64,000 nt of DNA from Polynucleobacter necessarius (GTDB taxonomy: Bacteria; Pseudomonadota; Gammaproteobacteria; Burkholderiales; Burkholderiaceae). This document shows, piece after piece, positions 4,795-58,317 of the stretch. A program made the position numbers and the translations under genes. Under the pieces are notes generated by a model. It saw only the letters and a program-made list of their open reading frames with translations, searched no databases and had not been told where the DNA came from. The number at the start of each line of letters is the position of its first letter. Within the stretch, counting starts at the first letter, position 1. The stretch is taken from positions 708,457 to 772,456 of the forward strand of contig NZ_LT615227.1 in NCBI RefSeq assembly GCF_900096755.1, written 5' to 3'.

Positions 4795-4798
4795 CTGA

Positions 4799-16384: not shown

Positions 16385-17460
16385 TTAGGGTTTGTCGAGA
16401 ACGGTAGGGGTTAAGAAGACAAGCAGCTCAGTTTTGTCTCGTAACTTAGATTCATGACGAAATAAGTGCCCAATTAGAGGAATATCACCCAGTAGGGGGA
16501 CTTTGACCTCATCCTCTCGTTCGGTTGTCTGAAAAATGCCTCCGATGATCGCTGTTCCGCCGTTTTCAACCGTTATTTCTGAGCTCAGACTTTTGGTGTC
16601 TATGGCATAACCCTGCTCGGTTTTCATACCGATAGTGTCTTTATTGATGCCAACAAGCAATGAAATTTTTCCGTCGGGATGGATCTTGGGAATTACCTCT
16701 AAACGAAGATTTGCCTTTCTAAATTGCAACTTACTGCCATTTTGGGAGGTGGTTTGATAGGGAAGCTCCGTACCTTGTTCGATAGTGGCCTTGACCTGAT
16801 CTCCGGTCATGATTCTGGGATTGGAAAGAATCTTTCCTTGACCATCCGATTCGAGGGCAGATAACTCCACTTGCAAGAGGCGGCTGGCGTTTTTTGAAAC
16901 CAGTGTTGCTGCCACCGTTGCTGGATTAAATCCATTGAGACCCGTACCGCCCAATTCAAAACCCCCGGAGATTTTTTGATCCGGATTACCTTCGATTGAA
17001 TTAGCTTGATACCCAAGCTTTACCCCTAGCTCACGGGCAAAGCGTTCATCTGCCTCAACAATACGGGCCTCAATCAGGATCTGCCGTGGACTATGAATAT
17101 GATCGCCGCCAAAGGGAAGGGCGGCATCTTCGCGACGATATTTTTGAAATGCCAAAATTTCTGTATGTGGCCCAATTCAGTAAATGTCACCGTTTCGCAC
17201 AATTCGCAAACCTTTGCTTCCCAGTATCGAATGCACTGCGGTTTGCCATGGCGTATGGACAAGGTCTATCGTAATCTTGCCTTTGATGGAATCACTCAGC
17301 AGAAAATTTGTAAAAGCTCAACCAAATCGATATCGACAAATTGCAAGCTGATTGGTGTGTGCAAGAAGTTTTGCGAGGGAGTATTCCCTTGGGCGGGGCA
17401 TGTTAAAAAAATGAGAACAAGCAGCACATTCCCCAAATATTTTTTTAATCTTTCTCGCAT
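16385..17460 (-). pseudogene. pilQ: Broken pilQ-type secretin
   Basis: This is a remnant of the outer-membrane secretin of type IV pili. Reading from ATG at 17460 gives a signal-like N-terminus and the start of the short secretin STN domain (ISLQFVDIDLVELLQ), then a stop at 17296-17298. The same domain resumes in another frame (FLLSDSIKGKITIDLV, then LGSKGLRIVRNGDIY), which fits a small out-of-frame deletion near 17308. An in-frame TGA at 17177-17179 replaces a residue that is usually tryptophan (IY-stop-IGP). The remaining 256 codons encode the secretin domain, ending ELLVFLTPTVLDKP. About 358 codons in all, without AMIN domains, which is short for PilQ. TGA is a normal stop in this genome, so recoding is unlikely. 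Confidence 0.87.
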
Positions 17461-17478
17461 GTTTTTTTGGATTCAAGT

Positions 17479-18173
17479 TCATTCACTCTTAGATGATGTG
17501 AGCGTGAGAGATTTCCCCTGGGGGTGCGTCAGGGTGACAGCATCTTTTTGAATACGACTAAGTCGCCAATCTCCTAAAACGGATGCCCCCATTTCGAATG
17601 TGGACCTGCCCTTGCCGGTATGGAAATAAGCGCGCTGGGAGTTACCCATTTGTAGGCTCCCCAAATATCGCCAACGGCGTATTTCAGCCTCATGGGAGAT
17701 GGGTAGAGGCTTGTAGATAGCCTTGTTTTCTGCCTTCTTTTCTTTAAAAGAGTGAATACTCACTTCCAATAAGTCTATTTCTTTATATATATGTCATCCC
17801 GGCCATCCTGTAGCTCGTTGCGCAAAACAGCTATTTCTTTTTGAAGCTCAGTTAGTTGGTTTTGGGCGCTTTCAATCTGTGTTTGAGAGTTTGATTTCAA
17901 TGATTCATAAGCGCCAAACAACATCAATCCGAGGGAGGCTAGACATGCAAACCCAGCGACTAATCCGCCTATCTTTTTGAGTTGAGGTGTTAAGTGAAGA
18001 CCTTGGAGAGCGTCCAATTTTGGCTGGTTTGTATGTATGCCCAAGGTCTCTGAATAATTATTTTTGGCGGTCTTGGGCTTGCGGATTCCATGGGGGTCTG
18101 GGATTGCAGGATCGTCACCAAGATCACTCAAAATCTCATCAAATGCATGGTTGGGAATATGGCGTGATGGCAT
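17479..18173 (-). pseudogene. Broken PilO/PilP-like pilus assembly gene
   Basis: Two reading frames fit end to end. The first (132 codons from ATG at 18173) has a charged N-terminus, one membrane segment (about residues 68-90) and a coiled coil ending at a stop at 17775. The second, without an ATG, continues the helix (IYKEIDLLEV) and then shows a PilP/GspC-like beta domain (RRWRYLGSLQMGN, later VLGDWRLSRIQKDAVTL). They join if two bases are removed from the TATATATAT tract at 17784-17792. I infer one former gene of about 230 codons, a PilN/PilO-like membrane part fused to a PilP-like part, broken by dinucleotide slippage. The position just before pilQ supports a pilus role. No pilM is present. 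Confidence 0.66.
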
Positions 18174-18276
18174 GCCTACATTTTCAAAGTGAGGGCGTTC
18201 AATATCTATAGGCCTAACTTGAATGGCTCGTCAGAATATGACTTGAAAAAAGACAAAAACAAGGGTTTTGGAGCTT

Positions 18277-18313
18277 TTAGGTAAATTGTCCAAGCACCCT
18301 ATAATTTGGACAT
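18277..18313 (+). promoter_or_regulatory. Candidate mrcA promoter with very short leader
   Basis: A perfect TATAAT lies at 18300-18305, only 8 bases before the mrcA ATG at 18314. A weak TTAGGT at 18277-18282 gives a 17-base spacer. If used, transcription would begin at or next to the start codon and mrcA would be leaderless. No purine-rich ribosome-binding site precedes the ATG, which agrees. The 140-base interval 18174-18313 holds no gene. Confidence 0.45.
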
Positions 18314-20650
18314 ATGGCGCTACCCCCAAAAGACAAGCCGACGCTCAATCAGAGACCAACCCGTCCAATCGACAGACGTCCTCGGCAACCACGAGTTGAT
18401 GGCGGCATACCTCGCAAGTCCTCCAGTAATCCACTTGTTAAGGCATTGCTCATTATTGGTGTGGTTTTTGCTTTGGTGGTTACCCTCCTGATGGGGTACG
18501 CGTTTTTGGTTGCAAAACCAAACTTGCCAAAAATCTCTGCATTAACGGATTACAACCCGAAAATACCTTTGCGTATTTATACGGCCGACAAAGTGTTGAT
18601 TGGCGAATTTGGTGAAGAGCGTCGCAAAGTGATTCCGCTCAATGAAATTCCTCAAAATATGCGCAATGCAGTTTTAGCTATTGAGGATGATCGCTTTTAC
18701 TCCCATGGTGGCGTTGATTATGTTGGCATTCTGCGTGCTGCTGTTACGAATTTACGAGGTCACCTCTCACAGGGCGCCTCAACAATCACTATGCAGGTGG
18801 CCCGCAATTTTTTCTTGAGTAATGAGAAGACCTTTAGTCGAAAAATTTATGAGGTGTTGCTCGCGTGGGAAATCGAATCGCAACTCACTAAGGACAAAAT
18901 TCTGGAAATCTACATGAACCAGATTTTCTTGGGGCAGAGGGCGTATGGTTTTTCCAGTGCAGCACAAATTTACTTCGGCAAAGATTTAAAAGACATTACG
19001 ATCGCTGAGTCGGCAATGTTGGCTGGATTGCCTAAGGCGCCTTCAGCATATAACCCCGTAACAAATTTTCGTCGCGCCAAGATTCGTCAAGAATATATTC
19101 TGCAGCGTATGCGTGATCTGGGATACATCTCCTCAGACGAATATCAAAATGCCATGATTGAAGAGCTGCGTATCTGTGGCCTTGGCAATGAGTTTGCGGT
19201 ACGTGCAGATTTCCCTGCTGAAATGGTTCGCCAACTTCTCTTTACGCAATACGGCGAGGCAATTTACTCGCAGGGAATTGATGTCTACACTACTATTCTG
19301 AAGGCAGATCAAGATGCTGCATATAAAGCAGTACGTCGCGGTATTTTTGAATACGATTTACGTCATGCTTATCGTGGCCCAGAAGGGTTTATTGATCTTC
19401 CGGAGGACCCCGTAAAACGTCAGCGCGCAATTGACGAGGCTTTGTTGGCCTACCCCCAGTTAGATGATTTGCAGTCTGGTGTAGTGCTTGATGTAAAGCC
19501 TAAAGAAATGCAAGTCATGATTGCTACCGGAGATACCATCACCCTCAAAGGCGAAGGCATGAAGTTAGCGGCAGCCTCCTTAACGGATAGCGCTCAACCG
19601 AAGAAGCGTTTGCGTCCAGGTGCTGTTGTTAGGTTGCTTTCTGATGCAGGTGTTTGGAAGCTTGCGCAGTTGCCACAAGTAGAGGCCGCCTTCGTTTCCA
19701 TGAATGCGGAAACGGGCGCGATTCTGTCTTTGGTTGGTGGCTTTGATTTCCGTCGTAATCAATTTAATCACGTGACTCAGGCGCTGCGTCAGCCAGGCTC
19801 ATCCTTTAAGCCCTTCATATACGCCGCCGCAATTGAAAAAGGTTTTGCACCCAGCACGATGGTGAATGATGCGCCTTTATCTATTGACAGCATGGAGACA
19901 GGTAGCCAGGCATGGGAGCCAAAGAACTACGATGGTAAATACGACGGCATGATGCGATTACGCACTGCCTTAGCAAAGTCTAAGAACTTAGTTTCCGTAA
20001 GAATTGTCCGGGCGATTGGCCCATCCTATGCTCAAGAATATATTCAGCGCTTTGGATTCGAGCCAGAGAAACACCCACCCTATTTGACAATGGCTTTGGG
20101 CGCTGGCTCAGTAACGCCTTTGCAAATGGCATCAGCTTATAGCATGTTTGCAAATGGCGGTTATCGTGTTGATCCTTTCTTAATCGATAAGATGATTGAC
20201 TCCAAAGGCACGGTTTTGTTTGAGGCTAAACCGACGCATGCGCGACAAGATGCACCAAGGGTATTGGATGCTAGAACTGCATTTGTAATGGATAGCATGC
20301 TGCAGGAGGTTACAAAGTCCGGTACGGCTGCAAGTGCACGAGGCAAATTAGGGCGCAATGATATTGCCGGAAAAACCGGAACAACCAACGAGTCTCATGA
20401 CGCATGGTTTGCAGGCTACAACCCCAAGGTGGTTGCGATTGCCTGGATTGGTTTTGATAAGCCCGCTAGCTTAGGTGATCGAGAAACAGGTGGCGGCTTA
20501 GCACTACCAATGTGGATTTCTTATATGTCAGTTGCCCTCAAAGATTCACCACAAGAGGCACGCGAAGTACCTGAGGGCGTAACCCAATTTGATGGTGATT
20601 GGTTTATTCCAGAGTTCTCGCGCAATAGCGGTCCACGCGAACTGCAGTAG
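18314..20650 (+). CDS. mrcA: Penicillin-binding protein 1A (bifunctional peptidoglycan synthase)
   Basis: This is a class A penicillin-binding protein that polymerises glycan strands and cross-links peptides on the periplasmic face. The 778 residues have a basic N-terminus, one membrane anchor (about 42-66) and the GT51 glycosyltransferase domain with AIEDDRFYSHGGVDY and EIYMNQIFLGQRAYGF. The transpeptidase follows, with the SxxK serine in PGSSFKPF (about residue 496), SKN in AKSKNLVSVR and KTGTT (about residue 687). It diverges from the pil remnant, as ponA/mrcA does in other Burkholderiales. Intact. Confidence 0.96.
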   Translation: MALPPKDKPTLNQRPTRPIDRRPRQPRVDGGIPRKSSSNPLVKALLIIGVVFALVVTLLMGYAFLVAKPNLPKISALTDYNPKIPLRIYTADKVLIGEFGEERRKVIPLNEIPQNMRNAVLAIEDDRFYSHGGVDYVGILRAAVTNLRGHLSQGASTITMQVARNFFLSNEKTFSRKIYEVLLAWEIESQLTKDKILEIYMNQIFLGQRAYGFSSAAQIYFGKDLKDITIAESAMLAGLPKAPSAYNPVTNFRRAKIRQEYILQRMRDLGYISSDEYQNAMIEELRICGLGNEFAVRADFPAEMVRQLLFTQYGEAIYSQGIDVYTTILKADQDAAYKAVRRGIFEYDLRHAYRGPEGFIDLPEDPVKRQRAIDEALLAYPQLDDLQSGVVLDVKPKEMQVMIATGDTITLKGEGMKLAAASLTDSAQPKKRLRPGAVVRLLSDAGVWKLAQLPQVEAAFVSMNAETGAILSLVGGFDFRRNQFNHVTQALRQPGSSFKPFIYAAAIEKGFAPSTMVNDAPLSIDSMETGSQAWEPKNYDGKYDGMMRLRTALAKSKNLVSVRIVRAIGPSYAQEYIQRFGFEPEKHPPYLTMALGAGSVTPLQMASAYSMFANGGYRVDPFLIDKMIDSKGTVLFEAKPTHARQDAPRVLDARTAFVMDSMLQEVTKSGTAASARGKLGRNDIAGKTGTTNESHDAWFAGYNPKVVAIAWIGFDKPASLGDRETGGGLALPMWISYMSVALKDSPQEAREVPEGVTQFDGDWFIPEFSRNSGPRELQ

Positions 20651-20662
20651 TGCATCTCTAAA

Positions 20663-21368
20663 ATGGCTCGGCAAGCGCGCACTGTAATACCTGGCCAAGC
20701 AATGCATGTCATGGTGCGTGGAAATAATCGAGAGATACTTTTCTTTGGTGATGAGGATCGTCGCATTTATTTAGAGTGGTTGCGCGATGCGGCAAAACAA
20801 TTTGCATGTGCAGTACATGCATTTGCTCCGATGCCAAATCATGTGCATTTACTGATGACGCCGCAAAATGAAGATTCGCTTGCCAAGACTATGCAGTCTT
20901 TGGGGCGTCGTTATGCGCAATGCTTCAAACCAGCTGCACCATCGCTCTGGGACTATTTGGGAGGGGCGCTATTGCTCGTCCTTGATTGACCCAGAATATT
21001 TCTTACGTTGCCAGCGGTACATCGAGCTAAATCCAGTGAGGTCTGGTTTTGAATCAAGCCCCCAGGATTCTGGATGGACAAGCTTTTCGAGTCATATTGG
21101 CGGAAACCTTGAGCCATGGCTTGTAGATCACCAGTATTTTTGGAAATTGGGTAATACGCCATTTGAGAGGCAAATGGCATGGGCTAGCTTTGTAAAAGAG
21201 GGCGCCCCCCACTGGGAAGATAAGCAGATTACAGAATCCTTGATTCGTTCTAAGCCTTGGGTGAGTGATATTTACGCTAACAAGCTATTTAAAGACAACC
21301 CAGAACTTGCTCAGATCCGTCATCGTGGGCGTCCAAAGAGAATTACCTCTTTAAATTCAATAACTTAA
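20663..21368 (+). pseudogene. Frameshifted REP-associated tyrosine transposase (RAYT)
   Basis: The product belongs to the Y1/IS200-like transposase family often found as single-copy RAYT genes. The first frame has RTVIPGQAMHVMVRGNNRE at the N-terminus and the HUH metal motif in PMPNHVHLLM. It then runs off frame at about residue 88. The other frame continues with RSGTIWEGRYCSSLID, IELNPVRSG and a basic C-terminus. Removing one A from the AAA at 20927-20929 restores a single 234-residue product. It stands 12 bases after mrcA. Probably inactive. Confidence 0.85.
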
Positions 21369-21416
21369 GAAATTTCTTGCTATCTTTCCCTTGTTTTTAA
21401 AGGGATTGAATTTATT

Positions 21417-21478: not shown

Positions 21479-21564
21479 TTTTATTTCTATTGCATCAGCA
21501 TGGGTATTCACCTATATTTGATCCTCCAAAAGTAATCAGGCCTTTGTCGCCCCTCGGAAACACT

Positions 21565-24500
21565 ATGACTACACAATTGAATTCAGATCTTCGTCCAATC
21601 GCTCAAGGTCTATATGACCCACAAAATGAGCATGATGCCTGCGGCGTAGGATTCGTAGCGCACATTAAAGGCAAGAAATCTCATGAGATCGTTTCTCAGG
21701 GTTTGCAGATTCTTGAGAACTTAGATCACCGGGGAGCGGTTGGTGCCGATCCTTTGATGGGTGATGGCGCCGGCATTTTGATTCAGATTCCCGATATCTT
21801 GTATCGCGAAGAAATGGCCAAGCAAGGTGTGAAATTGCCACCTTTGGGCGAGTATGGCGTTGGCATGATTTTCTTGCCTAAAGAGCACGCTTCTCGTTTG
21901 GCTTGCGAACAAGAATTAGAGTGCACTGTTCGCTTAGAGGGTCAGGTTGTTTTGGGTTGGAGAGATGTTCCGGTTGATGTGAAATTGCCAATGTCTCCAA
22001 CAGTGCAAATGACAGAGCCATTCATTCGTCAAATTTTTATTGGCCGCGGGGGCGCGACATCATGACAACCGATGCGCTTGAGCGTAAGTTGTATGTGATT
22101 CGTAAAACAGCAAGTCACGCTATTCAAGATTTACATCTGAAGCACGGTAAAGAATATTTTGTTGCTTCAATGTCCGCCAGAACCATTGTTTATAAGGGTT
22201 TGCTGTTGGCTAACCAGGTCGGTGCTTACTACCAGGATTTGCAAGATAAGCGCACTGTATCCGCGCTTGCTTTGGTTCATCAACGCTTCTCTACAAATAC
22301 TTTCCCTGCATGGGAATTGGCGCATCCATATCGCATGATTGCGCACAACGGTGAGATCAATACCGTTAAAGGCAACGTAAATTGGGTGAATGCACGTGAA
22401 GGCGCAATTAGCTCTCCAGTACTTGGTGATGACCTCCAAAAATTGTGGCCACTGATTTATCCAGGACAGTCTGACACTGCATGTTTTGATAACTGTTTAG
22501 AGTTGTTGGTAATGTCTGGTTATCCATTGGCTCAAGCCATGATGATGATTCCTGAGGCATGGGAACAGCATGCGTTGATGGACGACAATCGTCGCGCCTC
22601 TTCTATGAATATCACGCAGCGATGATGGAGCCATGGGATGGCCCTGCTGCAATGGCATTTACCGATGGTCGTCAAATCGGCGCAACTTTGGATCGTAATG
22701 GCTTGCGTCCAGCACGCTACTACGTAACCGATGATGATTTAGTCATCATGGGTTCTGAGGCAGGCGTATTGCCAATTCCAGAAAGCAAGATTGTTCAAAA
22801 GCGGCGCCTGCAACCAGGCAAGATGTTCATGATTGACATGGAACAAGGCCGCATCATTGATGACGTTGAGCTCAAGAACGCCGTTTCTAAAGCGAAGCCA
22901 TATAAGAGTTGGATTGATGCCGTTCGTGTGAAGTTGGATGAGGTTGACGCAAGCAAGGCTGACTTGGTTGATGAGAAAACTACTATTCGTCCAGCCGCAA
23001 AATTGCTAGATCGCCAACAGGCATTCGGCTACACCCAAGAAGATATCAAGTACCTCATGGCTCCAATGGCCATGAATGGCGAAGAGGCAATTGGTTCAAT
23101 GGGTAACGATAGCCCATTGGCAGTTCTCTCTAATAAGAACAAGCCGCTTTATAACTACTTCAAGCAATTGTTTGCGCAAGTTACTAATCCTCCGATTGAT
23201 CCGATTCGCGAGAACATGGTGATGTCATTGGTGTCGTTTATCGGACCAAAGCCGAACTTGTTAGATACAAACAACATTAATCCACCAATGCGCTTGAAAG
23301 TTAGTCAGCCAATTTTGGACTTTGATGACATCACCAAGATTCGTCACATTGGCCACTACACCAATGGTAAGTTCCGCTCATATGAATTGGATATCTGCTA
23401 CCCGGCTTCATGGGGTAAGGCTGGTATCGAAGCGCGTTTGGCATCTTTGTGTGCTGAAGCGGCTGATGCAGTTCGCTCTGGCTACAACATCTTGATCGTG
23501 AGCGATCGCCAGGTTGATGAGAAGCATGTAGCAATTCCTGCGTTGTTAGCTACTTCTGCAATTCATCAGCATTTGGTGCAAAAAGGCTTGCGTACTAGCG
23601 TTGGTCTAGTGGTTGAGACAGGTAGCGCTCGCGAGACTCATCACTTTGCCCTCTTGGCTGGTTATGGTGCAGAAGCTGTTCACCCGTACCTCGCAATGGA
23701 AACTTTGGCTGAAATGGCCAAAGGCTTGTCTGGAGATTTGTCTGCTGAAAAAGCAGTGAAGAATTTTGTAAAAGCAGTTGGTAAGGGCTTGCAAAAAGTA
23801 ATGTCCAAAATGGGCATCTCTACTTACATGTCTTACACTGGCTCACAAATTTTTGAAGCCATTGGTTTAAACCGCGACATCATCGATCAGTATTTCAAAG
23901 GCACCCCATCAAACGTTGGTGGTATCGGTGTATTTGAAGTTGCTGAAGAAGCCTTGCGTATGCACACTGCTGCGTTTGGCGATGATCCGGTCTTAACTAA
24001 TATGCTGGACGCTGGCGGGTGAGTACGCTTTCCGTATTCGTGGCGAGAACCATATGTGGACTCCTGACACAATTGCGAAGCTGCAGCATTCCACCCGCAT
24101 TGGTGCTGAAAAGGGCTATCAGACTTATAAAGAGTACGCGAACATCATCAATGATCAAACCAAGCGTCAAATGACTTTGCGTGGTTTGTTTGAATTCAAG
24201 ATTGATCCAGCAAAAGCCATTCCATTGGATGAGGTTGAGTCTGCAAAAGAAATCGTTAAGCGTTTTGCAACGGGCGCGATGTCTTTAGGCTCTATCTCTA
24301 CTGAAGCGCACGCTACTTTAGCGGTGGCAATGAACCGTATTGGCGGTAAGTCCAATACCGGTGAAGGTGGCGAGGATCCAAATCGTTACGTAAACGAACT
24401 CAAGGGCATTCCAATTAAGAAGGGCAAGACTTTAGCCAGCATCTTGGGTAGTGATGTTGTTGAAGCCAACATCCCGTTGCTCGATGGCGATTCATTGCGT

Positions 24501-25294
24501 TCCAAGATCAAGCAAGTGGCTTCTGGCCGCTTTGGTGTGACAACGGAATATTTGCGCTCAGCCGATCAGATTCAGATCAAGATGGCACTGCGGGTCAGAG
24601 TTTTGCGGCATTCCTTGCGCGAGGCATCACTTTGGATTTAGTGGGCGATGGTAACGACTATGTTGGCAAAGGCCTCTCTGGTGGACGCGTCATTGTGCGT
24701 GCTCCGCATGAGTTCCGTGGCGATACTACTAAGAACATTATTGTTGGTAATACCGTTCTCTACGGCGCAATCGCTGGTGAAGCATTCTTTAACGGTGTGG
24801 CTGGCGAGCGTTTTGCAGTGCGTAACTCTGGTGCTACTACTGTTGTTGAAGGTACTGGCGATCACGGTTGTGAATACATGACCGGCGGTACGGTTGTTGT
24901 ATTGGGTGCTACAGGCAGAAACTTCGCGGCAGGTATGAGCGGTGGTATTGCTTATGTTTATGACGAAGATGGTTTATTCGCTAAGCGTTGCAATACCAGC
25001 ATGGCAACCTTAGAAAAAGTATTGCCATCTGCAGAGCAAATCGCTAAGGTTCCTCAATCACAGTGGCATGCCCCTGTTGATGTGAAGGACGGTGGTGAGC
25101 GCTTAACCGATGAGCAAATTCTGAAGACTTTGATTGAGCGTCATTTCCGTCATATAGGCTCAGAGCGTGCAAAAGCACTCTTGGTTGATTGGGAAAACGC
25201 CTGTGGCCGTTTTGTGAAGGTGCTTCCTACTGAGTACAAGCGCGCTCTTGGTGAGCTGTGGGAAAAAGCTCAGAACAAAACAGTTGCAGCTTAA
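21565..25294 (+). pseudogene. gltB: Glutamate synthase large subunit, broken in at least four places
   Basis: GltB normally hydrolyses glutamine at an N-terminal cysteine and passes ammonia to 2-oxoglutarate at an FMN/3Fe-4S centre. The start at 21565 leads to the catalytic-cysteine segment EHDACGVGF. Frameshifts lie near 22048-22055, at 22599-22602 (a duplicated TC before TTCTATGAA) and at 24017-24019 (an extra G in GGGT). At 24584-24590 the frame jumps from IKMA to [14 protein letters not shown], skipping roughly 300-350 residues that hold much of the FMN barrel and the iron-sulfur cysteines. The C-terminal beta-helix ([10 protein letters not shown] onward) is retained. The four bases GGCA at the junction could have served both ends of the deletion. 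Neighbouring gltD is intact. Confidence 0.94.
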
Positions 25295-25344: not shown

Positions 25345-26808
25345 ATGGGTAAGGTCACTGGATTCATGGAGTTTGAGCGCGTTGATGAAACATACGAAGC
25401 GCCGGTTAAACGTCTCCACCATTACAAAGAGTTTGTAGCGGCACTAACTGATGAAGAGGCAAAAGTTCAGGGTGCACGTTGTATGGACTGCGGCATTCCG
25501 TTTTGTAATAACGGCTGCCCAGTCAACAACATCATTCCTGAATTTAACGACTTGGTATTTCATAACGACTGGAAGAATGCATTAGATGTATTGCAATCTA
25601 CCAATAACTTCCCTGAATTTACTGGACGTATTTGCCCTGCGCCATGCGAAGCAGCTTGCACCTTAGGCATTAATCGCGCCCCCGTTGGCATTAAGTCAAT
25701 TGAGCACGCCATTATTGATAAGGGCTGGGAGAACGGTTGGGTTAAACCACAACCATCTAAGACTAAGACTGGCAAAAAAGTGGCTGTTGTTGGTGGTGGC
25801 CCAGCAGGCATGCCAGCTGCACAGCAATTGGCGCGCGTTGGTCATGACGTTACCGTATTTGAGAAAAATGATCGTGTTGGTGGATTGCTGCGTTATGGCA
25901 TTCCTGATTTCAAAATGGAAAAGTGGTTAATTGACCGTCGCGTTGAGCAGATGCAAGCTGAAGGCGTGAAGTTTGAGACAGGCGTATTTGTTGGCAAAGA
26001 AGCAATTGGTGCGGAAGTAAAAAATTATTCCACTAAAACAGTTTCGCCTGAGCAGTTGATGAAAGACTTTGATGCAGTGCTCATTACTGGTGGTGCAGAG
26101 CAGCCACGTGATTTGCCTGTGCCTGGCCGTGAATTGGCTGGAGTGCATTACGCATTGGAATTTTTGATTCCACAGAACAAAGAAAATGCAGGCGACTTTA
26201 AGAATGAAATTCGTGCAACTGATAAGCACGTAGTCGTTATTGGTGGTGGAGATACGGGCTCTGATTGCGTAGGAACTTCAAATCGTCATGGTGCCACGAA
26301 GATCACTCAGTTTGAGTTGCTGCCACAGCCACCAGAAGTTGAGAACAAGCCTTTGGTATGGCCATATTGGCCAACTAAGTTGCGCACATCCTCTTTTCAC
26401 GAAGAAGGTTGTGATCGTGACTGGTCAGTTGGCACTAAGCGTTTTGAAGGTAAAAACGGCAAAGTTGAAAAGCTGATTGGTGTTCGCTTGGAATGGAAAG
26501 ACGGCAAGATGGCAGAAGTGCCAAACTCCGAATTTGAGATCAAGGCAGATTTGGTACTTTTAGCGATGGGCTTTGTGTCCCCAGTGCAGCAAGTGTTGAA
26601 TGCATTTGGTGTTGAAAAGGACGCACGCGGTAATGCTAAAGCCACTGTAGATGGTCAAAATGCCTATCAAACTAATGTTCCTAAGGTATTTGCAGCAGGT
26701 GATATGCGTCGTGGGCAGTCTTTGGTGGTTTGGGCGATTCGCGAAGGACGTCAATGCGCTCAAGCAGTGGATGAGTATTTAATGGGATCATCTGTTTTGC
26801 CCCGATAA
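25345..26808 (+). CDS. gltD: Glutamate synthase small subunit
   Basis: GltD is the FAD/NADPH-oxidising subunit that feeds electrons to GltB. The 487 residues have the N-terminal cysteine cluster [16 protein letters not shown] and [13 protein letters not shown], an FAD-binding loop [19 protein letters not shown], an NAD(P)-binding loop [11 protein letters not shown] and the C-terminal [16 protein letters not shown]. No lesion is visible. With gltB destroyed the subunit has no catalytic partner here, so it may be a gene on its way out, or serve another reductase role. Confidence 0.95.
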
Positions 26809-29801: not shown

Positions 29802-30443
29802 ATGAAAAGCCATAAAAGAATTTCTCAATACTTGGTTGCAAGTTTGCTTCTGGTCTCGGGTTCTATTTTTGCGCAAACCCCTGATCAATCAACACCTCCT
29901 GATGCCCTCATTAAGATGGTCGTCACCGATGTCATGGACACAGTCAAATCTGACCCAGATATTCAAAAAGGAAGCATTCCTAAGATTGTGGATTTGGTTG
30001 AGAAGAAAATTGTTCCTTATACCGATATGCGTCGTACGACTGAAATGGCGATGGGACCCAATTGGAAAAAAGCGACACCAGAACAGCAGGCCCAGCTCTC
30101 AATGGAGTTTAAGAATTTATTGATTCGTACATACTCAGGTGCCTTGAGTCAATTGCGTGATCAAACCGTTCAATTTAAGCCTTTGCGCGCTGCTCCCGAT
30201 GACAAGGAGGTTGTTGTCAAGACGGTTGTGATGGGTCGTGGAGATCCGGTTCCTCTCGATTACCGTTTGGAAAAGACTGCAAGCGGCTGGAAGGTCTATG
30301 ACATGAATATCATGGGCGTTTGGTTGGTAGAGGCTTATCGCAATCAGTTCTCCAATCAAATTAGTCAAAATGGCATTGAGGGCTTGGTGAAATTTTTACA
30401 AGACCGCAATAAACAATTAGCTGCTGCTAAGCCATCCAACTAA
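29802..30443 (+). CDS. mlaC: Periplasmic phospholipid shuttle MlaC
   Basis: MlaC carries phospholipids across the periplasm between MlaA and MlaD. The 213 residues begin with a signal peptide (about 1-24, cleavage near FAQ). The Tol-Tol-Ttg2 domain follows, with VPYTDMRRTTEMAMG-like and WKVYDMNIMGVWLVEAYRNQF segments (about residues 70 and 165). In relatives mlaB follows; here only 18 bases separate MlaC from a decayed ABC permease. Confidence 0.95.
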   Translation: MKSHKRISQYLVASLLLVSGSIFAQTPDQSTPPDALIKMVVTDVMDTVKSDPDIQKGSIPKIVDLVEKKIVPYTDMRRTTEMAMGPNWKKATPEQQAQLSMEFKNLLIRTYSGALSQLRDQTVQFKPLRAAPDDKEVVVKTVVMGRGDPVPLDYRLEKTASGWKVYDMNIMGVWLVEAYRNQFSNQISQNGIEGLVKFLQDRNKQLAAAKPSN

Positions 30444-30461
30444 TCGAAAAGCCCATACATC

Positions 30462-31263
30462 ATGCGGCGCCTTGTGAAACAGGGATTAAATAGACCTCCT
30501 CTTGAGTATGGCAGCGGTTTTCCGACGCTTTTACATAAAGAGATAAAGCGTTTTTATAAAGTTGCGTTCCAAACGGTTGCTGCACCAGTCTTAACGGCAG
30601 TGTTGTATCTCATGATCTTTGGCCACGTGCTCGAAGGTAGAGAAGTTTATGGTCGCCTGAGTTATACGGCCTTCTTGATACCGGGTTTAGTCATGATGAG
30701 CGTTTTGCAAAATGCCTTTGCAAATACTTCCTCATCGCTGATTCAGTCAAAAGTAACCGGTAACCTCGTATTTGTCTTGCTTGCCCCCTTAAGTCACCTT
30801 GAGTTTTATGCAGCTTATATTTTGGCGGCAGTTTTCAGAGGGGTTGTGGTTGGTTTGGGCGTCTTCTTAATTACCGCATGGTACGGTCTTGCCCTCTTTA
30901 GAATACCCATTATGGATTCTGGCGTTTGCTTTTTTAGGCGCTGCCATACTAGGCAGCCTGGGTTTGATCGCAGGTATTTGGGCTGATAAATATGATCAGC
31001 TTGCCGCTTTTCAGAACTTCATCATCATGCCTGCCACGATGTTGTCGGGTGTGTTTTATTCAATACACTCTTTGCCACCTGCATAGCAAGTTGTTTCCCA
31101 TTTCAATCCATTTTTCTACATGATTGATGGATTTCGCTATGGCTTCTTTGGGGTTTCAGATATCTCCCCTTGGAATAGTTTGGCGATTGTTGCTTGTTTC
31201 TTTGTGGTGGTATCGGCGATCGCGTTAAGACTGCTACAAAAAGGCTATAAGCTTAGACATTAA
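30462..31263 (+). pseudogene. Broken ABC-2 type transport permease (YadH-like)
   Basis: The gene resembles the ABC-2 permease that normally pairs with a YadG-like ATPase between mlaB and bolA in Burkholderiales. The first frame encodes KEIKRFYKVAFQTVAAPVL and several membrane segments up to ALFRIP. A frameshift at about 30896-30906 moves the rest (YPLWILAFAFLGAA, LGLIAGIWADKYDQ) into the next frame. A TAG at 31084-31086 then interrupts where LPPxWQ is expected, and the C-terminus (SHFNPFFYMIDGFRYGFF) continues to 31263. Both mlaB and the ATPase gene are missing upstream. Confidence 0.9.
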
Positions 31264-44753: not shown

Positions 44754-46890
44754 TCAGTTATGGAGTGGGTGCAGCTTGTTGAGAATCGCAAACTTCCATT
44801 GGTGTTGTATAGCTTGTGACGATTTAATTTATACAGTTCTGCAATATCGTTTTTGCAGCTTGAGTCTGTGGCAATTTTGATTGCTTGCCCTATGTAATCT
44901 TCTTTATTTTTCGCCATCAACTGCTCTAGCCCCATTTGTTCGAGCAGGCCGCTAGGCAAGTTGGCCGCGCATAAATTGACCTTTTTCCGTAACGATGGGT
45001 AGGCCACACTCTACCGCTTGGATTGCAGTGTTAAACCCAGAGAACCCTAGGGTAGCTAGAAAAACATTAGCCAATTTCATGAGCCCATGAAATTGGCTTG
45101 CTGAGAGCAGCGGAATAAAAACTACCTGATGATCAAAATGGAGATTTGCATCTGAAAACTGCTTGGATAAGCGTGTTTTTTAAGACCTCCATTGGACTGT
45201 CTGGGAACTTGAAAAATACAAATTGGGCATTTGGTAGTTGGCGTGCAATCTCAACCAAGACCCAGTCATTTTCTGGGTTGTATTTGTAGGGGGTACCAGG
45301 GCACAACAGTATTGGACGATCAGCATGAATGCCCAGAGACGCCAAGTCTGGAGTGACAGATTCGGCCGGATAAGGTTGGTAGTGGCACCCTAAATTGGGT
45401 AGGCTGATTAATTGCTCGCTGTAATAATTTTGCGAAAGCGGATCTTCAAATCGCTCGGCAGATAAGTAGTAGTCAATGCTTGGCAAGCCAGAGGTTTCAG
45501 GGTGGCCCCAGGCCGCAATTTGTACCTTTGCGATGCGTAGGCTTGCAAGTTGGCAGGTGAGCCGATCCATGCCAATTTCAGGGTAAATAAGGCAGTCCAG
45601 CCCCTTGTCTTGAATCGCATTCGCCCACTGTGTAATGCCGAATTTACCTTGAGTAAAGCTTGCGGCTAATAATTTGGCGGCTTGCGTTTCCTCGTCCGAT
45701 TTTTCACCAAGATGAAAGAGGTGAAGCTCGAATATGTTCCGGTCTAGGTGGCTTACCCAGCCTTTAATAATTGCGTCCCATACTGAATGTCGATGCAGAT
45801 ACCCGCTCACAATGCCTATTTTTGATTTTCTGAGTTGCAATACGTGGCGCGGGTGCAGAAATAGTAGATTGCATACCCTTCATTAACTCAATGCAAATAG
45901 AGCCGTAGCGAGAAAGAAGGCGCTTGTTATTGGTATTTTGGTAGGCGAGAAAAAATGGCTGGTGGCTGCCAACAATATGATGGCTATCTTTAATGTGAGC
46001 TTTTACAAAACTCTCAAGGCTGGCCAGCATCGTCTCAAAGGTTTTTCTAGATTCTTGCAACTCCTGTTTGTTGGAGTAGATCTTGGGAATTCTTGAAAGA
46101 GTCATCGCATAGCGCGCCTCTAAACAGTTGGGATCAATTTTTAGCGCGGCTTCATAGTAGCGCAGTGATTGGCTTGCACTATTGAGTTCATCATAGTTGT
46201 CGCCATTATTGATGTAGGCTTCTAGATAATTGGGTTCAAGTTCAATGGCTTTATCAAAGTATTTAATGGCACCCTGAAAATCTTTTATATTTTGAAATAG
46301 AGTTCCGTAATTGAAATACGCATCTGCGTAATTAGCTTGAATAGCCAGCGCTTGTTGGTAGCTTTTTAAAGCCTCAGGGTATTGGCCAAGCTCTTGCAAG
46401 GCATTCCCGCGATTATTCAATGCCTCAGCATATTGAGGGGCAAGAGAAATCGCTTTATCGTAATTTACGACGGCCTTGGAGAAGTCTCTTAACTCTTGGA
46501 ATGTATTTGCAGTATTGAAGTAGGCTTCTGCATACTGCGGAGCAATTTTTGCGCTTGTTTGGAAATCTGCAAGCGCCGACTGAAACTCACCCAATTGATA
46601 TTGGACTAAGCCACGATTTAAATAAACATGCTCATTTTTCGGATTAATGGCAATTGCTTGATTAAATAGCTTGATAGCTTCAGGACATTCGCCCGTTTGC
46701 GCTTTTAAGACCCCTAAAAACTGCAATGCTTCAAAAAGCTGCGGATTTAACCTCAGTGCTTCGCGATATTGAATTTCAGCAGTTGGCAGATTGCCTGCCT
46801 GGTGTGACTGGAGTCCGTTCTGAAAAAAATACTAGATTGGGATAGGGCTTCTGGTGACAATCCCATTTGAGTAATTTTTTTATTTGACAT
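44754..46890 (-). pseudogene. TPR/GT41 (O-GlcNAc-transferase-like) protein wrecked by five frameshifts
   Basis: The gene read from ATG at 46890. Successive frames encode an N-terminus (MSNKKITQMGLSPEALSQ), at least six TPR repeats (for example AEAYFNTANTFQELRDFSKA and ADAYFNYGTLFQNIKDFQGA) and the GT41 domain (KIGIVSGYLHRHSVWDAI, ILLCPGTPYKYNPEND). The end carries SGLLEQMGLEQL and LNKLHPLHN before a TGA at 44754. Frames change at 46823-46829 (T run of 7 where 8 are needed), about 45845, about 45165 (extra C), about 44964 (GGCC for GGC) and about 44784. Such proteins glycosylate proteins such as flagellin or adhesins. This copy cannot make a full product. Confidence 0.92.
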
Positions 46891-52804: not shown

Positions 52805-52814
52805 AATACTTTAT

Positions 52815-52841: not shown

Positions 52842-52902
52842 GCTATGAGGCAGTTGATGATTGGCAGCCTTTTATTTCATTGTCGATTAAGCTGAGGAAA
52901 GC

Positions 52903-53580
52903 ATGTCTAGAGGAATAATTTCAATTTACTGGGGTGATGAAGCCAAGCCTCCCATAGAGCGTTTAAAGGCTTCGGTAAAAAAATTTCATCCTAATTTGCC
53001 GCATGAAATTATTAAGGTTGAAGCTCCGAGTGGTGACCCTAGTAGCCTTAATCAAAAAGCAGCAATACTTGAGCTCTCACCATTTGAAGAAACGCTTTTT
53101 CTAGATTTGGATACAGTAGTTCTTGGCAATTTAGATTTTGGTTTTGAAAAGGCCAAACAATTTGGAATGGCTATCGCTATTTGTGAGGCACCTTGGGGCA
53201 AGCGCTATCCAAAAATATTTTCTGGTGACGAGATCGAGTACAACACTGGAGTAATATTTTTTACCAAAAAAGCAAAAGTGGTTTTTGATAAATGGAAAGA
53301 GTTGGCGAAAACAATTGACTCTTCAATTCTCGGCATATCCGAAGACGGTATCTATACGATGCCTGCCAACGATCAAGGTTCATTTGCATTGGCAATCGAA
53401 GAGACTGGATTTAACCCCTTTATTCTTCCGTTGAATTGGAATTTCCGCCCAATGTGGCAGAGGAGTTTCTTTGGCCCAATTAAGATTTGGCATGACTATG
53501 CTGATCCACCTCCGTTCTTTGGTGAATTGAATACTTACTACGCCAATCCAGAATCAATTATTCAGTACCACCAGGGATAA
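52903..53580 (+). CDS. Putative nucleotide-sugar glycosyltransferase (GT8-like fold)
   Basis: The 225-residue protein resembles nucleotide-diphospho-sugar transferases. A DxD-type metal motif stands in LFLDLDTVVLGNLDFG (about residues 66-81). NTGVIFFTKK (about 117) and the C-terminal IKIWHDYADPPP region suit a retaining glycosyltransferase of GT8 type. No signal or membrane segment is seen. It forms a pair with the next gene 10 bases away. Substrate unknown; cell-surface glycan work is likely. Confidence 0.75.
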   Translation: MSRGIISIYWGDEAKPPIERLKASVKKFHPNLPHEIIKVEAPSGDPSSLNQKAAILELSPFEETLFLDLDTVVLGNLDFGFEKAKQFGMAIAICEAPWGKRYPKIFSGDEIEYNTGVIFFTKKAKVVFDKWKELAKTIDSSILGISEDGIYTMPANDQGSFALAIEETGFNPFILPLNWNFRPMWQRSFFGPIKIWHDYADPPPFFGELNTYYANPESIIQYHQG

Positions 53581-53590
53581 GCCTTAATTT

Positions 53591-54490
53591 ATGAATGAAT
53601 TACAGATCATCAGCACGTCAGATTCTTTAAATGGTGCCCTAGAGACTTGGTTTATTCAAAATACGCTTTTCGGTGGCGCGCCCTATAGCCTCGGTATTAA
53701 TCCAGCATTATTGGGTGCTTCGCCAGTCGTGTATCTAGAGCTGAATCAAATCAATGTCGATCTTATTCGCCACATTAAATCTTTAGGCAATAAAGCGGTG
53801 CTCTATCACATGGGTGGTGAGCGATTGGATAAAGATATTTCTGCTTATCCAGAGTGTGACTTAGTCATTCGTAATTATTACTTCCCCGGCATCATCAATT
53901 CCTCCAATCTTGGTGGAAAAGTCATTTGGGCGCCAAATGGCTTTAGAACTGGTGTTGCCCACGCACGCGATCAAAGCGCATTGAAGAAGGCTTCACAGCG
54001 TCAGAGCTTATCTGCATTTTTGGGCTGGATTAATAATGCTGCTTCTTACAACAATGAGCGTGCTAGTTTTGCAGGTCCCGCCGCAGCCTGCGGGGAAAAT
54101 TTATATGTAATGCCTTCCAATGGATTTGCTGGTGGCTATAACGTAGGTTTGTACTCAGCCATCATGGAAGACAGTATTTTTGCTCCGTGCCCATCGGGAA
54201 ATAATCCTGAAACTATCCGCCTGTATGACGCACTGGAACTCGGGCGCATTCCGATTTCACTCTCTCATGAGTTCTTGCTTGCGGAAGAAGCTTTGGCTTT
54301 GATTGGCCCAGTACCGTTTCCGATTCTCAATTCATGGTCAGAGCTACCTGATTTCTTGGAGAAGATGAAAGCTAGAGTCCTGAACAATCCAAATGAGATA
54401 TTGGATCTGCAAGAGCGATGCATTCATTGGTGGGCTGATTTCAAATTAGCCATGCAAAAAAAGATTGCCAGCCGCATAGCTAGCCTATAA
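53591..54490 (+). CDS. Putative exostosin-like glycosyltransferase
   Basis: The 299 residues lack a signal peptide. The C-terminal half has FAPCPSGNNPETIRLYDALE and LGRIPISLSHEFLL, the pattern of the exostosin (GT47) and related domain in which the enzyme recognises a nucleotide sugar. The N-terminal half is not recognised. It probably acts with the GT8-like enzyme directly upstream on a surface polysaccharide or glycoprotein. Confidence 0.68.
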   Translation: MNELQIISTSDSLNGALETWFIQNTLFGGAPYSLGINPALLGASPVVYLELNQINVDLIRHIKSLGNKAVLYHMGGERLDKDISAYPECDLVIRNYYFPGIINSSNLGGKVIWAPNGFRTGVAHARDQSALKKASQRQSLSAFLGWINNAASYNNERASFAGPAAACGENLYVMPSNGFAGGYNVGLYSAIMEDSIFAPCPSGNNPETIRLYDALELGRIPISLSHEFLLAEEALALIGPVPFPILNSWSELPDFLEKMKARVLNNPNEILDLQERCIHWWADFKLAMQKKIASRIASL

Positions 54491-54492
54491 AT

Positions 54493-55860
54493 CTATTCAG
54501 TCAGAATGGATTTACGCGTCTCTGGCAAAAAGATATAAGCCATTATTGCAGCGCTCAATAGGAAAATAACGGGGTACCAAAGGCCGGTGAGATTATTTCC
54601 TGACACTTGATTAATCCAAGTAACCGCCAAAGGAAGTAGTCCCCCCACCCAGCCTGCTGCCAGGTTATGGGGCAATGTAGCTGCACTGTTTCTATTTTTT
54701 GCGGGAAATAGTTCTGCAAGCAATGCAGTCTGGTCTGAGGACCAACCACCAAGGCTAGCGCTAAAGCTAGCGTCGTTAGCACAAGGCATAAGCCTAAAAG
54801 AGAGGCGGAGTTACTTGTCTCTAAATATGCCACCCCTAGGTTCTCTAAAAGCTTAAATGCTGGAATGATAAAAATGGCCCCAAGCGTAACGCCACATATC
54901 ACTACCGGTTTACGTCCAATCTTGTCCGAAAGCCAGCCTGAAAAGATGGTCAATGGAAAGAGTATTAGGGTGGAGCCAATGCTGAGTTGATCGACCAGTT
55001 CTGCAGGGAGCTTAATCGCAGTCTTTAAGAAGATGGCTACATACACTTGAACACAGAAAAACAAAATAGCACCGCTAGATGAAATGCAAAAGAAGAGCAA
55101 AAACATTCTTTTGCGAATCTCTGGGTCCTTAAAATTATTTGTCAGTTGCGATTTTGTTTTTGCGCCCTTATTCAACATCCCTAGAAAAACAGGCGTTTCT
55201 TCAAGTGACTTGCGTATCCAAAAGCCAATACCCAGCAGCAATATCGAAAGCCAAAATGGCACGCGCCAACCCCATGACTGAAATTCCTCGGGGGAAGGGT
55301 AATTGGAAGGGTAATTTCTAAGCAGTGCAATTTGTAAGGTGGAAAAGAGTATTCCCAGGGGCCCCATGAGTTGCAAGAAGCTTGTTTTAAAGCCTCTATG
55401 CTTATTTCCTGCATGCTCCGTTAGATAGACTGCGCTACCGCCAATTTCACCTCCGGCAGATAGGCCCTGCAAAAGTCGTAAGCTAACTAAAAGAATGGGA
55501 GCCCAGATGCCAATATGGGAATAGGTTGGCAGAAAGCCTACACTCACCGTCGCAAAGCCCATTATGGCGATGGTAATCATGAATACCGGTTTACGGCCTA
55601 TGCGATTGCCTATAGAGCCGAAAAGGGCGGACCCGATGGGGGGCGGGCACTACCATTCCAACGCCAAAGGTCGCCAGGCTCGCTAAAAGCCCGGCATTAG
55701 GGTCGCTGGAGGGAAAAAATAAGGGCCCAAATACAACCGCTAGGGTGGCGAAGGTTAGGAGGTCATACCACTCTAAAAATGTGCCAAAACAGGCTGCAAG
55801 GGCCACTTTCCGGTAGGAGTGCGAATCCCCATTTTTCTCTAAGTAACTGATTTTATTCAA
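54493..55860 (-). pseudogene. Broken MHS-type major facilitator transporter
   Basis: The gene encoded a metabolite:H+ symporter of the MHS group within the major facilitator superfamily. The first frame (from 55860) holds ACFGTFLEWYDLLTFATLA, typical of ProP/KgtP relatives, then shifts at the G6 run 55638-55643. The second frame starts IGNRIGRKPVF-like and continues with LRLLQGLSAGGEIGGSAVYL and WLSDKIGRKPVVI. A second shift near 54750 moves the last part (GGWSSDQTALLAELFP, LPETRKS) to the third frame. Substrate cannot be told from the sequence. Confidence 0.9.
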
Positions 55861-56029
55861 TTTATATCTTTAATAGTATTTATTTGTTGCATAGCAGCAA
55901 AAATTCCTTGCTTTGTCATATTTGCTCAGTTACAGTTTCATGGTGCAGTGCAATATTTAAGGTATCTACATCCTCCTTAATTAGCACTTAATTGACTAGT
56001 TGTACCACTTAATATTTCTGGAGAAATAC

Positions 56030-56614
56030 ATGAACCAAGAACAAATCACCACTAAATTGTCCCAAATTAACAGCGAAGGCCTTGAGGCTTCATTTTCTCT
56101 AAGCGAAGCCGCTTTGGTAAATGCTCAAAAATTGGCTGAATTGAACTATGCAGCATCCAAAGACGCTTTGGTAAATGCGCAAGACGGTTTTCAACAAGTT
56201 TTGACAGCAAAAGACCCAAAGCAAGTTACTGAACTTTTAAATGCTGAGACATTGCAAGCTGCAGGTAATCAAGCCGCTGCCTACCAAAAGAAAGTAAGCA
56301 AAGTATTGCGTGATAGCAATAAAGAATTTGCAAACGTAGTTGATGCAAGCATCGACCAGTTGCAAGATGGTTTCCAAGACTGGATTAATACTGTTGCTTC
56401 AAATGCACCTGCTGGTTCCGAGACTTTCATCTCTTCTTTCAAGACTGTATACGGAAGTGCGTTGCAAGGTTTTGAGCAGTTCCGCGCTGCTAGCAAAGAA
56501 GCGTTTGCAACTGCTGAGAAAACTGCTGATCAGGCACTCGAAACAGTACAAGGTCAAATTGCTCAAGTTAAGAAAGCTGCTACACCTGCATCACGTAGCC
56601 GCAAAGCTGCTTAA
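56030..56614 (+). CDS. Phasin family protein
   Basis: Phasins coat polyhydroxyalkanoate granules. From ATG at 56030 (GGAG upstream) the product has 194 residues, almost all helical and rich in Ala, Gln and Lys. Features are SLSEAALVNAQKLAELNYAA near the N-terminus, a long coiled-coil-like middle and the basic Ala-rich end TPASRSRKAA. The Phasin_2 pattern of Burkholderiales fits. The 169 bases before it (55861-56029) hold no gene. It stands alone with a terminator. Confidence 0.9.
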   Translation: MNQEQITTKLSQINSEGLEASFSLSEAALVNAQKLAELNYAASKDALVNAQDGFQQVLTAKDPKQVTELLNAETLQAAGNQAAAYQKKVSKVLRDSNKEFANVVDASIDQLQDGFQDWINTVASNAPAGSETFISSFKTVYGSALQGFEQFRAASKEAFATAEKTADQALETVQGQIAQVKKAATPASRSRKAA

Positions 56615-56645
56615 TTAGAGAATTTACTAAAGCATTACGTTTTAA

Positions 56646-56678
56646 AAAACCCACCTAGTGTGAGCTAGGCGGGTTTTT
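56646..56678 (+). terminator. Rho-independent terminator after the phasin
   Basis: The arms AAAACCC-A-CCTAG and CTAGG-C-GGGTTTT pair except for one A-C mismatch around the loop TGTGAG, and a T-run follows. It can act in both directions, between the phasin gene and convergent rmuC. Confidence 0.88.
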
Positions 56679-56717
56679 GTTTGTCTTGACTAAAGAAAAT
56701 ATTATTTATTTTGGGCG

Positions 56718-57992
56718 CTACTCAAAGTCTGAAGATGATTCGAGTAGCGCCGCCGCTATATTCTTACTGGGCTTAACGCCTAGTTCGCGAACTTTTTCGG
56801 CGGAGCGTATGAGATTGCCTTTGCCAGTCTTTAATTTATTGAATGCGTCGTGATAACTTGTCTGCGCCTGGTCTAGTCGTTGGCCAAGCTTCTCAAGATC
56901 ATCTACAAATCCAACAAATTTGTCGTAAAGATTGCCGCATTGTTTCGCAATCTCAAGGGCATTGCGATTTTGATGATCCTGTCTCCACAAATGGGCAACA
57001 GTGCGCAAAGTAGCCATCAAGGTGCTGGGGCAAACCAGCACAATATTTTTTGCTAAAGCTTCTTGGTAAAGATTGGGCGCAGTCTTTAGTGCCAATAAGA
57101 ATGCTGGCTCAATTGGTACAAACATTAAAACAAAGTCTACTGAGCCAACGCCATACAGGGCGCTATAGTTCTTGCCAGATAAGCCTTGAATATGTTGGCG
57201 CAGCGACTGGATATGGGCTGCCAACTCTTGTTCTGCTTTAGCTGGATCTGTGGCTTCAGCGTGCCTTGCATAGGCCGTAATAGATACCTTGCTATCGACA
57301 ACCAGACTTCTACCTTCAGGCAGCTTGATAACAACGTCAGGTTGTAAGCGTGAGCCATCTGTTTGCGTATGGCTATCTTGCACAAGATATTCTTCGCCTT
57401 TGCGTAGACCCGAAGATTCCAAGATGGATTCCAGAACTAGCTCCCCCCAATTACCCTGAACTTTAGAGTCACCTTTTAGGGCTTGAGTTAAGGAACGGGT
57501 CTCGTCTGACATGCGCAGATTGAGATTGGCGAGTCGTTCAATTTCACTTTTGAGTGCATGGCGCTCACGTGCTTCATTGCCATAGGAGTTGCTTACCTGC
57601 TCTTTAAATTCAGTGAGCTTGGTTTGTAGTGGCTTTAATAAAGCATCCAAGCTAGCTGCATTCTGTTCGGTGAAGCGTTTGGATTTGTCTTCCAAAATCT
57701 CGTTGGCCAAGTTTTTAAACTGGTTTGTGAGCGCTTCCTTTGCTTCATTGAGCGATTCAATTCGACCGAGGCCTTGTTTTCGTTCTGAGTCGAGCTCTGC
57801 TTCAAGGCGAATCGCATTTTGAAGTGCCTTGTCGCGTTCGGCGCGCATGCTTGCCGTCAGAGAGGCAACCGCTTGTACTTGTTGTTCTACGCGAGTCAGT
57901 GCTGAATGTAAATTGAGCGCATAAACCAAAAGGCCTGCACACAAACCTAAGGGCAGGCCAAACAGTAGAAGAGAGCTAAGATCGAAGGTCAC
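56718..57992 (-). CDS. rmuC: DNA recombination protein RmuC
   Basis: RmuC is a putative nuclease-fold protein that limits inversion between short inverted repeats. The 424 residues start with a membrane segment (about 8-26) followed by a long coiled coil (about 30-150). The RmuC domain contains VQGNWGELVLESILESSGLRKG, LPEGRSLVVDSKVSI and VDFVLMFVPIEPAF. Intact. Confidence 0.94.
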   Translation of the reverse strand: MTFDLSSLLLFGLPLGLCAGLLVYALNLHSALTRVEQQVQAVASLTASMRAERDKALQNAIRLEAELDSERKQGLGRIESLNEAKEALTNQFKNLANEILEDKSKRFTEQNAASLDALLKPLQTKLTEFKEQVSNSYGNEARERHALKSEIERLANLNLRMSDETRSLTQALKGDSKVQGNWGELVLESILESSGLRKGEEYLVQDSHTQTDGSRLQPDVVIKLPEGRSLVVDSKVSITAYARHAEATDPAKAEQELAAHIQSLRQHIQGLSGKNYSALYGVGSVDFVLMFVPIEPAFLLALKTAPNLYQEALAKNIVLVCPSTLMATLRTVAHLWRQDHQNRNALEIAKQCGNLYDKFVGFVDDLEKLGQRLDQAQTSYHDAFNKLKTGKGNLIRSAEKVRELGVKPSKNIAAALLESSSDFE

Positions 57993-58003
57993 AGCGAAAG
58001 AGC

Positions 58004-58317
58004 TTAGGCCTGAACCAATTTTTGTAGCTCACCAGATTGATACATCTCAGTCATGATGTCTGAGCCACCAATAAATTCACCATTAATGTAAAGCTGTGGA
58101 ATAGTCGGCCAATTGGCATATTCTTTAATTCCTTGGTGGATTCCGGCATCTTCCAAAACATTCACGGTGTGTAGATTTTCGACTCCACTAGCGCGCAAAA
58201 TATTTACAGCATTGCCAGAGAAAGCCGTATTGTGGAAACTGTGCTGTGCCCTTCCTTCATAAACAACATCACTGGATGGCTGGTAACGATTTCTTTAATT
58301 TGAGCTTGTGTGTCCAT
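58004..58317 (-). pseudogene. grxD: Monothiol glutaredoxin (GrxD) with two frameshifts and no active-site Cys
   Basis: GrxD is a CGFS-type glutaredoxin that carries 2Fe-2S clusters with BolA-type partners. The frame from ATG at 58317 reads TQAQIKEIVTSHPVMLFMK. A tandem AAGG duplication (58250-58257) then shifts it, and an extra T in TTT at 58221-58223 shifts it again. Between them the active site reads Q-Y-G-F-S, with TAC at 58227-58229 in place of a cysteine codon. The rest (SGVENLHTVNVLED, WPTIPQLYINGEFIGGSDIM) is in the third frame and ends normally. The product cannot be functional. Confidence 0.93.

Follow-up and report, generated by a model that had tools for sequence, protein, structure and literature searches.

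Polynucleobacter necessarius and others are, in work that Boscaro is said to have reported in 2013 and 2017, obligate endosymbionts of Euplotes. An excerpted genome report gives P. necessarius a size of 1.56 Mb and about 18% pseudogenization (PMC5632650), and the excerpt of a second report describes symbionts of 1.7–1.8 Mb with distinct origins (PMC11253213). Here we analyzed a 64,000-nt stretch of a Polynucleobacter chromosome (contig NZ_LT615227.1, positions 708,457–772,456; the window, to which coordinates refer unless another locus is named), in which pilQ, gltB and further genes are broken among intact core genes. The source chromosome (G000, contig 1) is a single contig of 1,705,691 bp with an estimated completeness of 99.98%. 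The breaks belong to a genuine, recent and selective gene decay, which has good support throughout the part of the chromosome that was read (27%), and the bacterium has very probably become host-restricted only recently, most likely in a protist, shedding genes that the host makes unnecessary.

The window was aligned with the syntenic 80-kb regions from ten congeneric genomes. We searched it for the conserved reading frames of G013 and G002 and all ten relatives for those of G013, and the broken window genes were then aligned as DNA with the ten relatives. Domains were named by the Pfam matches of the intact relatives' proteins and by NCBIfam with curated cut-offs. The first-pass annotation had listed eight disrupted genes, seven of which proved to be broken in comparison to the relatives, whereas the last one, a TPR/GT41-like gene, is likely split and had no counterpart among the G013 and G002 gene sets searched:

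16388..17451, minus strand: pilQ (type IV pilus / type II secretin) pseudogene; 25-bp deletion near 17308 and an in-frame stop; intact relative with PF00263 (Secretin)
17482..18188, minus strand: pseudogene upstream of pilQ; 2-bp insertion near 17794 and stops
20663..21365, plus strand: RAYT-like Y1 transposase pseudogene; 1-bp insertion near 20927; intact relative with PF01797
21445..25291, plus strand: gltB (glutamate synthase large subunit) pseudogene; insertions of 2, 2 and 1 bp near 22048, 22598 and 24017, and a 1,018-bp deletion at 24582
30474..31260, plus strand: ABC-2 permease pseudogene; 1-bp insertion near 30883; intact relative with PF01061
44687..46726, minus strand: TPR / GT41-like glycosyltransferase gene, probably split; TPR domains at 45767–46726, weak GT41 match at 45136–45840, overlapping frames
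54511..55827, minus strand: MHS-family (metabolite:H+ symporter) transporter pseudogene; 4-bp and 5-bp insertions near 55648 and 54737, and an in-frame 12-bp duplication
58007..58317, minus strand: grxD (glutaredoxin) pseudogene, named as in the first-pass annotation; 4-bp duplication near 58258 and 1-bp insertion near 58223; intact relative with PF00462

The seven broken genes carry 12 frameshifting indels, ten insertions and two deletions. For 11 of them all ten relatives match the reference, and for the indel in the gene upstream of pilQ nine of ten do, so the locus-by-locus comparison that the first-pass annotation had proposed revealed mostly private lesions. Several genes were indeed hit in more than one place, with four breaks in gltB and multiple lesions in pilQ, grxD and the MHS gene. 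The remnants of gltB retain 96–98% identity to G013. The gene upstream of pilQ is broken as had been claimed; its label as a pilus gene stands less firmly, as it derives from position, and the intact relative matched no Pfam family. The RAYT gene is found at the same place in the ten relatives, with a version shortened at its end in G017. The MHS gene, whose top NCBIfam match was TIGR00883 (under its cut-off), is broken in G017 and G076, too. In the TPR/GT41-like gene, the GT41 match (E 7e-4, under the curated cut-off) lies in the frame next to the TPR frame.

Core genes of the window were largely spared. Of its 70 genes in the conserved set described below, 58 scored intact (a count that wrongly includes grxD), six broken and six absent, four of the absent ones being accessory genes present in three of nine other genomes. 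The genes rpoA, aroB, hisD, hisA, petA (Rieske), prfA and hemA were named in the analysis and are open, and an intact block served as contrast:

28..8137, plus strand: block of ribosomal protein genes, secY and rpoA; each of the 11 sequences compared has these genes open and at full length

The name rpoA comes from our search and the other names of this block from the first-pass annotation, which counted about 60 essential or core genes without a frame break in the window.

The scan was extended to the next 400 kb of the chromosome and the matching parts of G004, G002, G017 and G016; G000 is collinear with G004. In total, 464 kb of the 1.71-Mb chromosome were covered. From 372 genes conserved in G004 and G002 we removed nine genes upstream of the window that had scored absent and seven without an intact score in G002 (four broken, three absent, with the same scores in G000), leaving 356. 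In G000, 276 of these were intact, 51 broken, five partial and 24 absent. After correction by hand (dnaB and uppP taken out, grxD added), about 50 of the 356 conserved genes (∼14%) are broken, and the list of eight understates the extent of the decay. At least one frameshifting private indel was found in 42 of the 51 broken genes, the remainder being disrupted by stops or other breaks, and 14 of the 42 contain two to five such events. The chromosome measures 1.71 Mb compared to 2.0–2.3 Mb in the closest relatives G002, G004, G007 and G013. The uppP call was rejected as a start-site overcall and the dnaB call since G000 merely lacks an intein-sized insert that G004 carries. This insert of dnaB (L077:19212 to L078:648) is also present, judged by length, in G002.

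A second genome of the genus, G017 (1.55 Mb), is decaying on a separate branch. In a tree of 40 genes (30,564 columns), G000 groups with G002, G004, G007 and G013 and G017 with G014, each with 100% support, and the two are not sisters. Among the 356 genes, 242 were intact, 68 broken, 15 partial and 31 absent in G017. Like G000, it has broken pilQ, the neighbor of pilQ, the MHS gene and the biotin genes; unlike G000, it has intact gltB, grxD and xseA and small indels rich in deletions. The losses overlap strongly. Of the 332 genes not absent in G000 (the 24 absent ones being excluded), 42 were lost in both genomes, 14 in G000 only and 51 in G017 only, and 225 were kept in both (odds ratio 13.2, p = 6e-16); 26 genes were broken in both. 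A decay inherited jointly is disfavored, and independence favored, because of the tree and because the break sites in pilQ, its neighbor and the MHS gene differ. Decay was also seen in G076 (1.66 Mb), where a stretch of about 100 kb has 17 broken genes among 82; the same stretch in G000 has 10 broken and six absent. The pilQ gene is in several pieces in G017 and G058 and, as judged by match number and strength, in G059, G061 and G076. In G060, a full-length pilQ match is kept and gltB is in pieces, and this genome may be at a still earlier stage of decay.

Biosyntheses that a host can supply are among the losses, namely those involving gltB, with no glutamate dehydrogenase found, and bioF, bioA and bioB. 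A gltB match was present in 185 of 186 genomes of the genus. Among 34 genomes picked from outside the matches listed, the single-contig genomes G058 and G060 have gltB in pieces, the rest being drafts or having the gene whole, and we rejected the idea that gltB loss is unique to G000. Glutamate dehydrogenase (PF00208, PF05088) was searched in G000, G017, G004, G002 and G076 and found in none of the five; in 14 control genomes, PF00208 was detected in 14 and PF05088 in one. In view of this negative result, the break of gltB has probably put an end to the assimilation of ammonium to glutamate, unless an unknown enzyme stands in. The small subunit gene next to it is preserved:

25345..26808, plus strand: gltD (glutamate synthase small subunit), intact with its partner gltB broken; open and 97% identical to G013 and G002

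The damage to glutamate synthase in G000, G058 and G060 suggests that reliance on external glutamate has arisen repeatedly. The genes bioF, bioA and bioB (L064:13926–17577) are broken in G000, G017 and G076, which is one pathway in three genomes. To name lost functions, we took 40 of the 60 genes scored broken or partial before the set was cleaned and compared their intact G004 relatives with NCBIfam; 27 of the 40 matched at 1e-20. Above the cut-offs were the broken genes bioA, bioB, xseA, yjgA, moaA, mobA, msrQ and one for a TolC-family channel, as well as uppP and dnaB, though neither of these is broken. Matches below the cut-off, which indicate likeness only, included bioF (by a hair), a PilB/GspE-like ATPase, a choline-dehydrogenase-like enzyme, parts of a branched-chain amino-acid transporter, and others.

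The decay is relaxed but very young, about 3% of the branch. The ratio of nonsynonymous to synonymous substitution rates (dN/dS), whose measurement had been suggested together with the first-pass annotation, was 0.099 in 54 broken or partial genes and 0.058 in 276 intact genes on the G000 lineage, compared to 0.051 and 0.043 for the same two gene sets on the G002 lineage. The contrast between the lineages has a z of 5.4 and corresponds to ∼3% of the branch without constraint. An earlier count with fewer sites had given the same direction (0.060 versus 0.030).

Small genomes with intact genes do occur in the genus, and G016 equals G000 in size (1.71 Mb), which would suit a free-living oligotroph that has no host and was streamlined adaptively. 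We consider this improbable. Streamlining should delete genes cleanly, without leaving fresh remnants with multiple hits and without cutting the only glutamate route found, and G016 has two broken genes among the 356 (besides 253 intact, four partial and 97 absent) where G000 has 51. A mutator or culture-adapted strain, with genes broken during laboratory growth on rich medium, would fit the young decay and the mutS gene not found in G000, and is more improbable still. No mutS match was obtained in 159 of the 186 genus genomes, and G004 and G002, which are among those without a match, keep these genes intact. Neither the two to five events in one third of the frameshifted genes nor the 1-kb deletion in gltB suits such a strain, and laboratory time would be far too short for ∼3% of a branch that measures 0.158 substitutions per site.

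The 276 intact-scored genes (247 kb) contain 15 frameshifting private indels compared to 66 in 55.5 kb of broken genes, a split that is partly circular; two of the 15 lie in the misfiled grxD, and two pairs sum to 3 bp. Sequencing or assembly errors in an ordinary, non-decaying genome are scarcely credible, because, although several lesions are 1–2-bp insertions of a type that noisy long reads can give, the deletions of 1,018 and 25 bp and the exact duplications of 4, 5 and 12 bp are not base-calling errors, and, in a comparison free of circularity, the breaks fall mostly in genes lost also in the separate lineage G017. The first-pass annotation had likewise argued from the pattern of the breaks that random error does not account for them.

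Host restriction thus appears to be the best reading in view of the genome size, the ∼14% broken genes, the loss of gltB without a glutamate dehydrogenase and the broken biotin genes. The part of the original proposal that concerns gene decay holds, with host restriction as its best fit, and a host, conceivably Euplotes as suggested there, is inferred from the gene losses and the size. In such a setting, selection on glutamate, biotin and other pathways would have stopped since the host supplies the products, a small population size would have let frameshifts become fixed, and the absence of MutS, and of MutL in the five genomes tested, would supply slippage errors. Several observations weigh against host restriction. 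The estimated completeness is that of a nearly complete genome, 73% of the chromosome lies outside the scan, and G000, in contrast to many symbionts, has a branch (0.158) that does not exceed the branch of G002 (0.191), a relative with intact genes. The intact gltD beside the dead gltB fits youth, but also another use. The stretch of G016 may not span the same range, so that its 97 absent genes make the comparison with streamlining imperfect. A small part of the decay may be common to G000 and G017, judging from indels taken by size only: 19 are common to these two alone and ten of them are frameshifting by size, four in genes intact in both genomes, five in genes broken in both (one of these genes being broken in G002, too) and one in a gene broken only in G000.

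The small indels of G000 have an unusual composition. In the broken genes of the clean set, 66 private frameshifting indels were found in 42 genes of G000 and 109 in 56 genes of G017. Among those of at most 8 bp, G000 has 37 insertions and 17 deletions (p = 0.009 against equality), whereas G017 has 20 insertions and 74 deletions (Fisher p = 2e-8 versus G000); the small indels of G076 comprise 14 insertions and 13 deletions. Thirteen insertions in G000 are 4–5 bp long. By the strict rule, nine of them are exact tandem duplications where they were aligned, and all 13 qualify once a displacement by a few bases is allowed. Ordinary slippage explains these insertions poorly because 11 of the 13 extend no repeat. 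Of the 13 insertions of 2 bp, 11 are tandem, and the eight of these that extend a repeat look like slippage. Exact 4–5-bp duplications make up 9 of 54 small indels in G000 compared to 3 of 121 in G017 and G076 together under the strict rule (p = 0.0015), and 13 of 54 with the shift allowed (p = 2e-5); against G076 alone, the 4–5-bp insertions (13/54 versus 2/27, p = 0.08) do not differ significantly. The breaks of G017 may be older and blurred, and the contrast may partly reflect age. A genome-wide excess of short tandem repeats, tried as independent proof of the duplications, gave no signal above a too high background. In all seven 4-bp duplications listed, the following base is G on the coding strand, which is not so for the eight 5-bp ones; this was noticed post hoc.

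The supply of such errors may depend on repair genes. No mutS match was found in G000 nor in 158 of the 185 other genus genomes (drafts included), 27 of 186 having the gene, and no MutL above the cut-off in the five genomes tested. This corresponds to the description of PnecC, in the excerpt of which mutS and mutL are missing in all 20 genomes (PMC5644125). Without MutS and MutL, slippage errors presumably arise more often, but the same holds for intact relatives. More specific to G000 is xseA (exonuclease VII large subunit; L071:9438–10642, G000:C1:921,894–923,098), which is split there, whereas all eight further genomes that were checked, of which five are eroding or suspected of it, have one full-length copy. 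Exonuclease VII removes trapped gyrase (PMC12004951), and trapped topoisomerase II causes duplications of 2–4, sometimes 5, nt in yeast and of 2–4 nt in tumors (excerpt of PMC11477040). In a cell without mismatch repair and with a broken xseA, the short overhangs at breaks from trapped gyrase might be filled in and the ends resealed, which would leave exact 4–5-bp duplications.

A bacterial counterpart of the topoisomerase-II duplication signature in the G000 lineage nevertheless seems unlikely to us. The de novo duplications in yeast and human tumors (signature ID17) may partly resemble those of G000 in size, 2–4 and some 5 nt, and in the lack of a prior repeat, whereas they need end joining according to the same excerpt (PMC11477040), and Ku (PF02735) was not found in any of the five genomes searched, other end-joining routes lying outside this search. 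Because xseA itself contains a 5-bp duplication, the duplication process may precede the loss of xseA. The idea is further weakened by G076, which has a full-length xseA yet two 4-bp duplications. A narrowly worded literature search returned no paper connecting gyrase with such duplications in bacteria. If the idea were true, lesions of the insertion type, rather than the small deletions commonly seen, would be the main force behind erosion, and which repair gene dies first would decide how a young symbiont decays. Should the duplication-rich spectrum follow xseA status in more lineages, it would tie the loss of one repair gene to the mode of decay.

Two further sites of the window deserve mention. 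Upstream of the broken ABC-2 permease gene, a STAS gene (91 aa) and an ABC ATPase gene (252 aa) are present in all ten relatives and both missing in G000:

30441..30473, plus strand: deletion site of a STAS-domain (MlaB-like) gene and an ABC ATPase gene (domains STAS_2 and ABC_tran)

The deletion lies at the mla cluster, of which the STAS gene is a part, and the genes mlaE, mlaD, mlaA and mlaC are intact while these two genes are deleted (30440–31260). The mla lipid transport complex may be incomplete because of this deletion. The region 53591–54487 encodes a protein with an RXYLT1 C-terminal domain, which is named after a eukaryotic enzyme; a contig scan gave two close relatives with 80–81% identity in beta-proteobacterial metagenome-assembled genomes.

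In comparison to known systems, the genome fits the pattern of host-restricted Polynucleobacter, a kind already known. It shares with the Euplotes symbionts the reduced size (1.56 to 1.7–1.8 Mb), the many pseudogenes and the independent origins, and differs in its duplication-rich indels, which the excerpts of the two reports do not mention (PMC5632650, PMC11253213). The insertion-biased, duplication-rich spectrum of small indels is possibly new. The decay is at a very early stage, and comparison with close relatives that are intact and with cousins that decay separately makes it possible to ask which genes go first and by which kind of mutation. In the study of Blochmannia vafer, the missing enzyme is reportedly glutamine synthetase. 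That host-dependent bacterium, as described in the excerpted report, has likewise lost a step of nitrogen assimilation, with the difference that the glutamine enzyme is missing there, whereas in G000 glutamate synthase is broken (PMC3017870).

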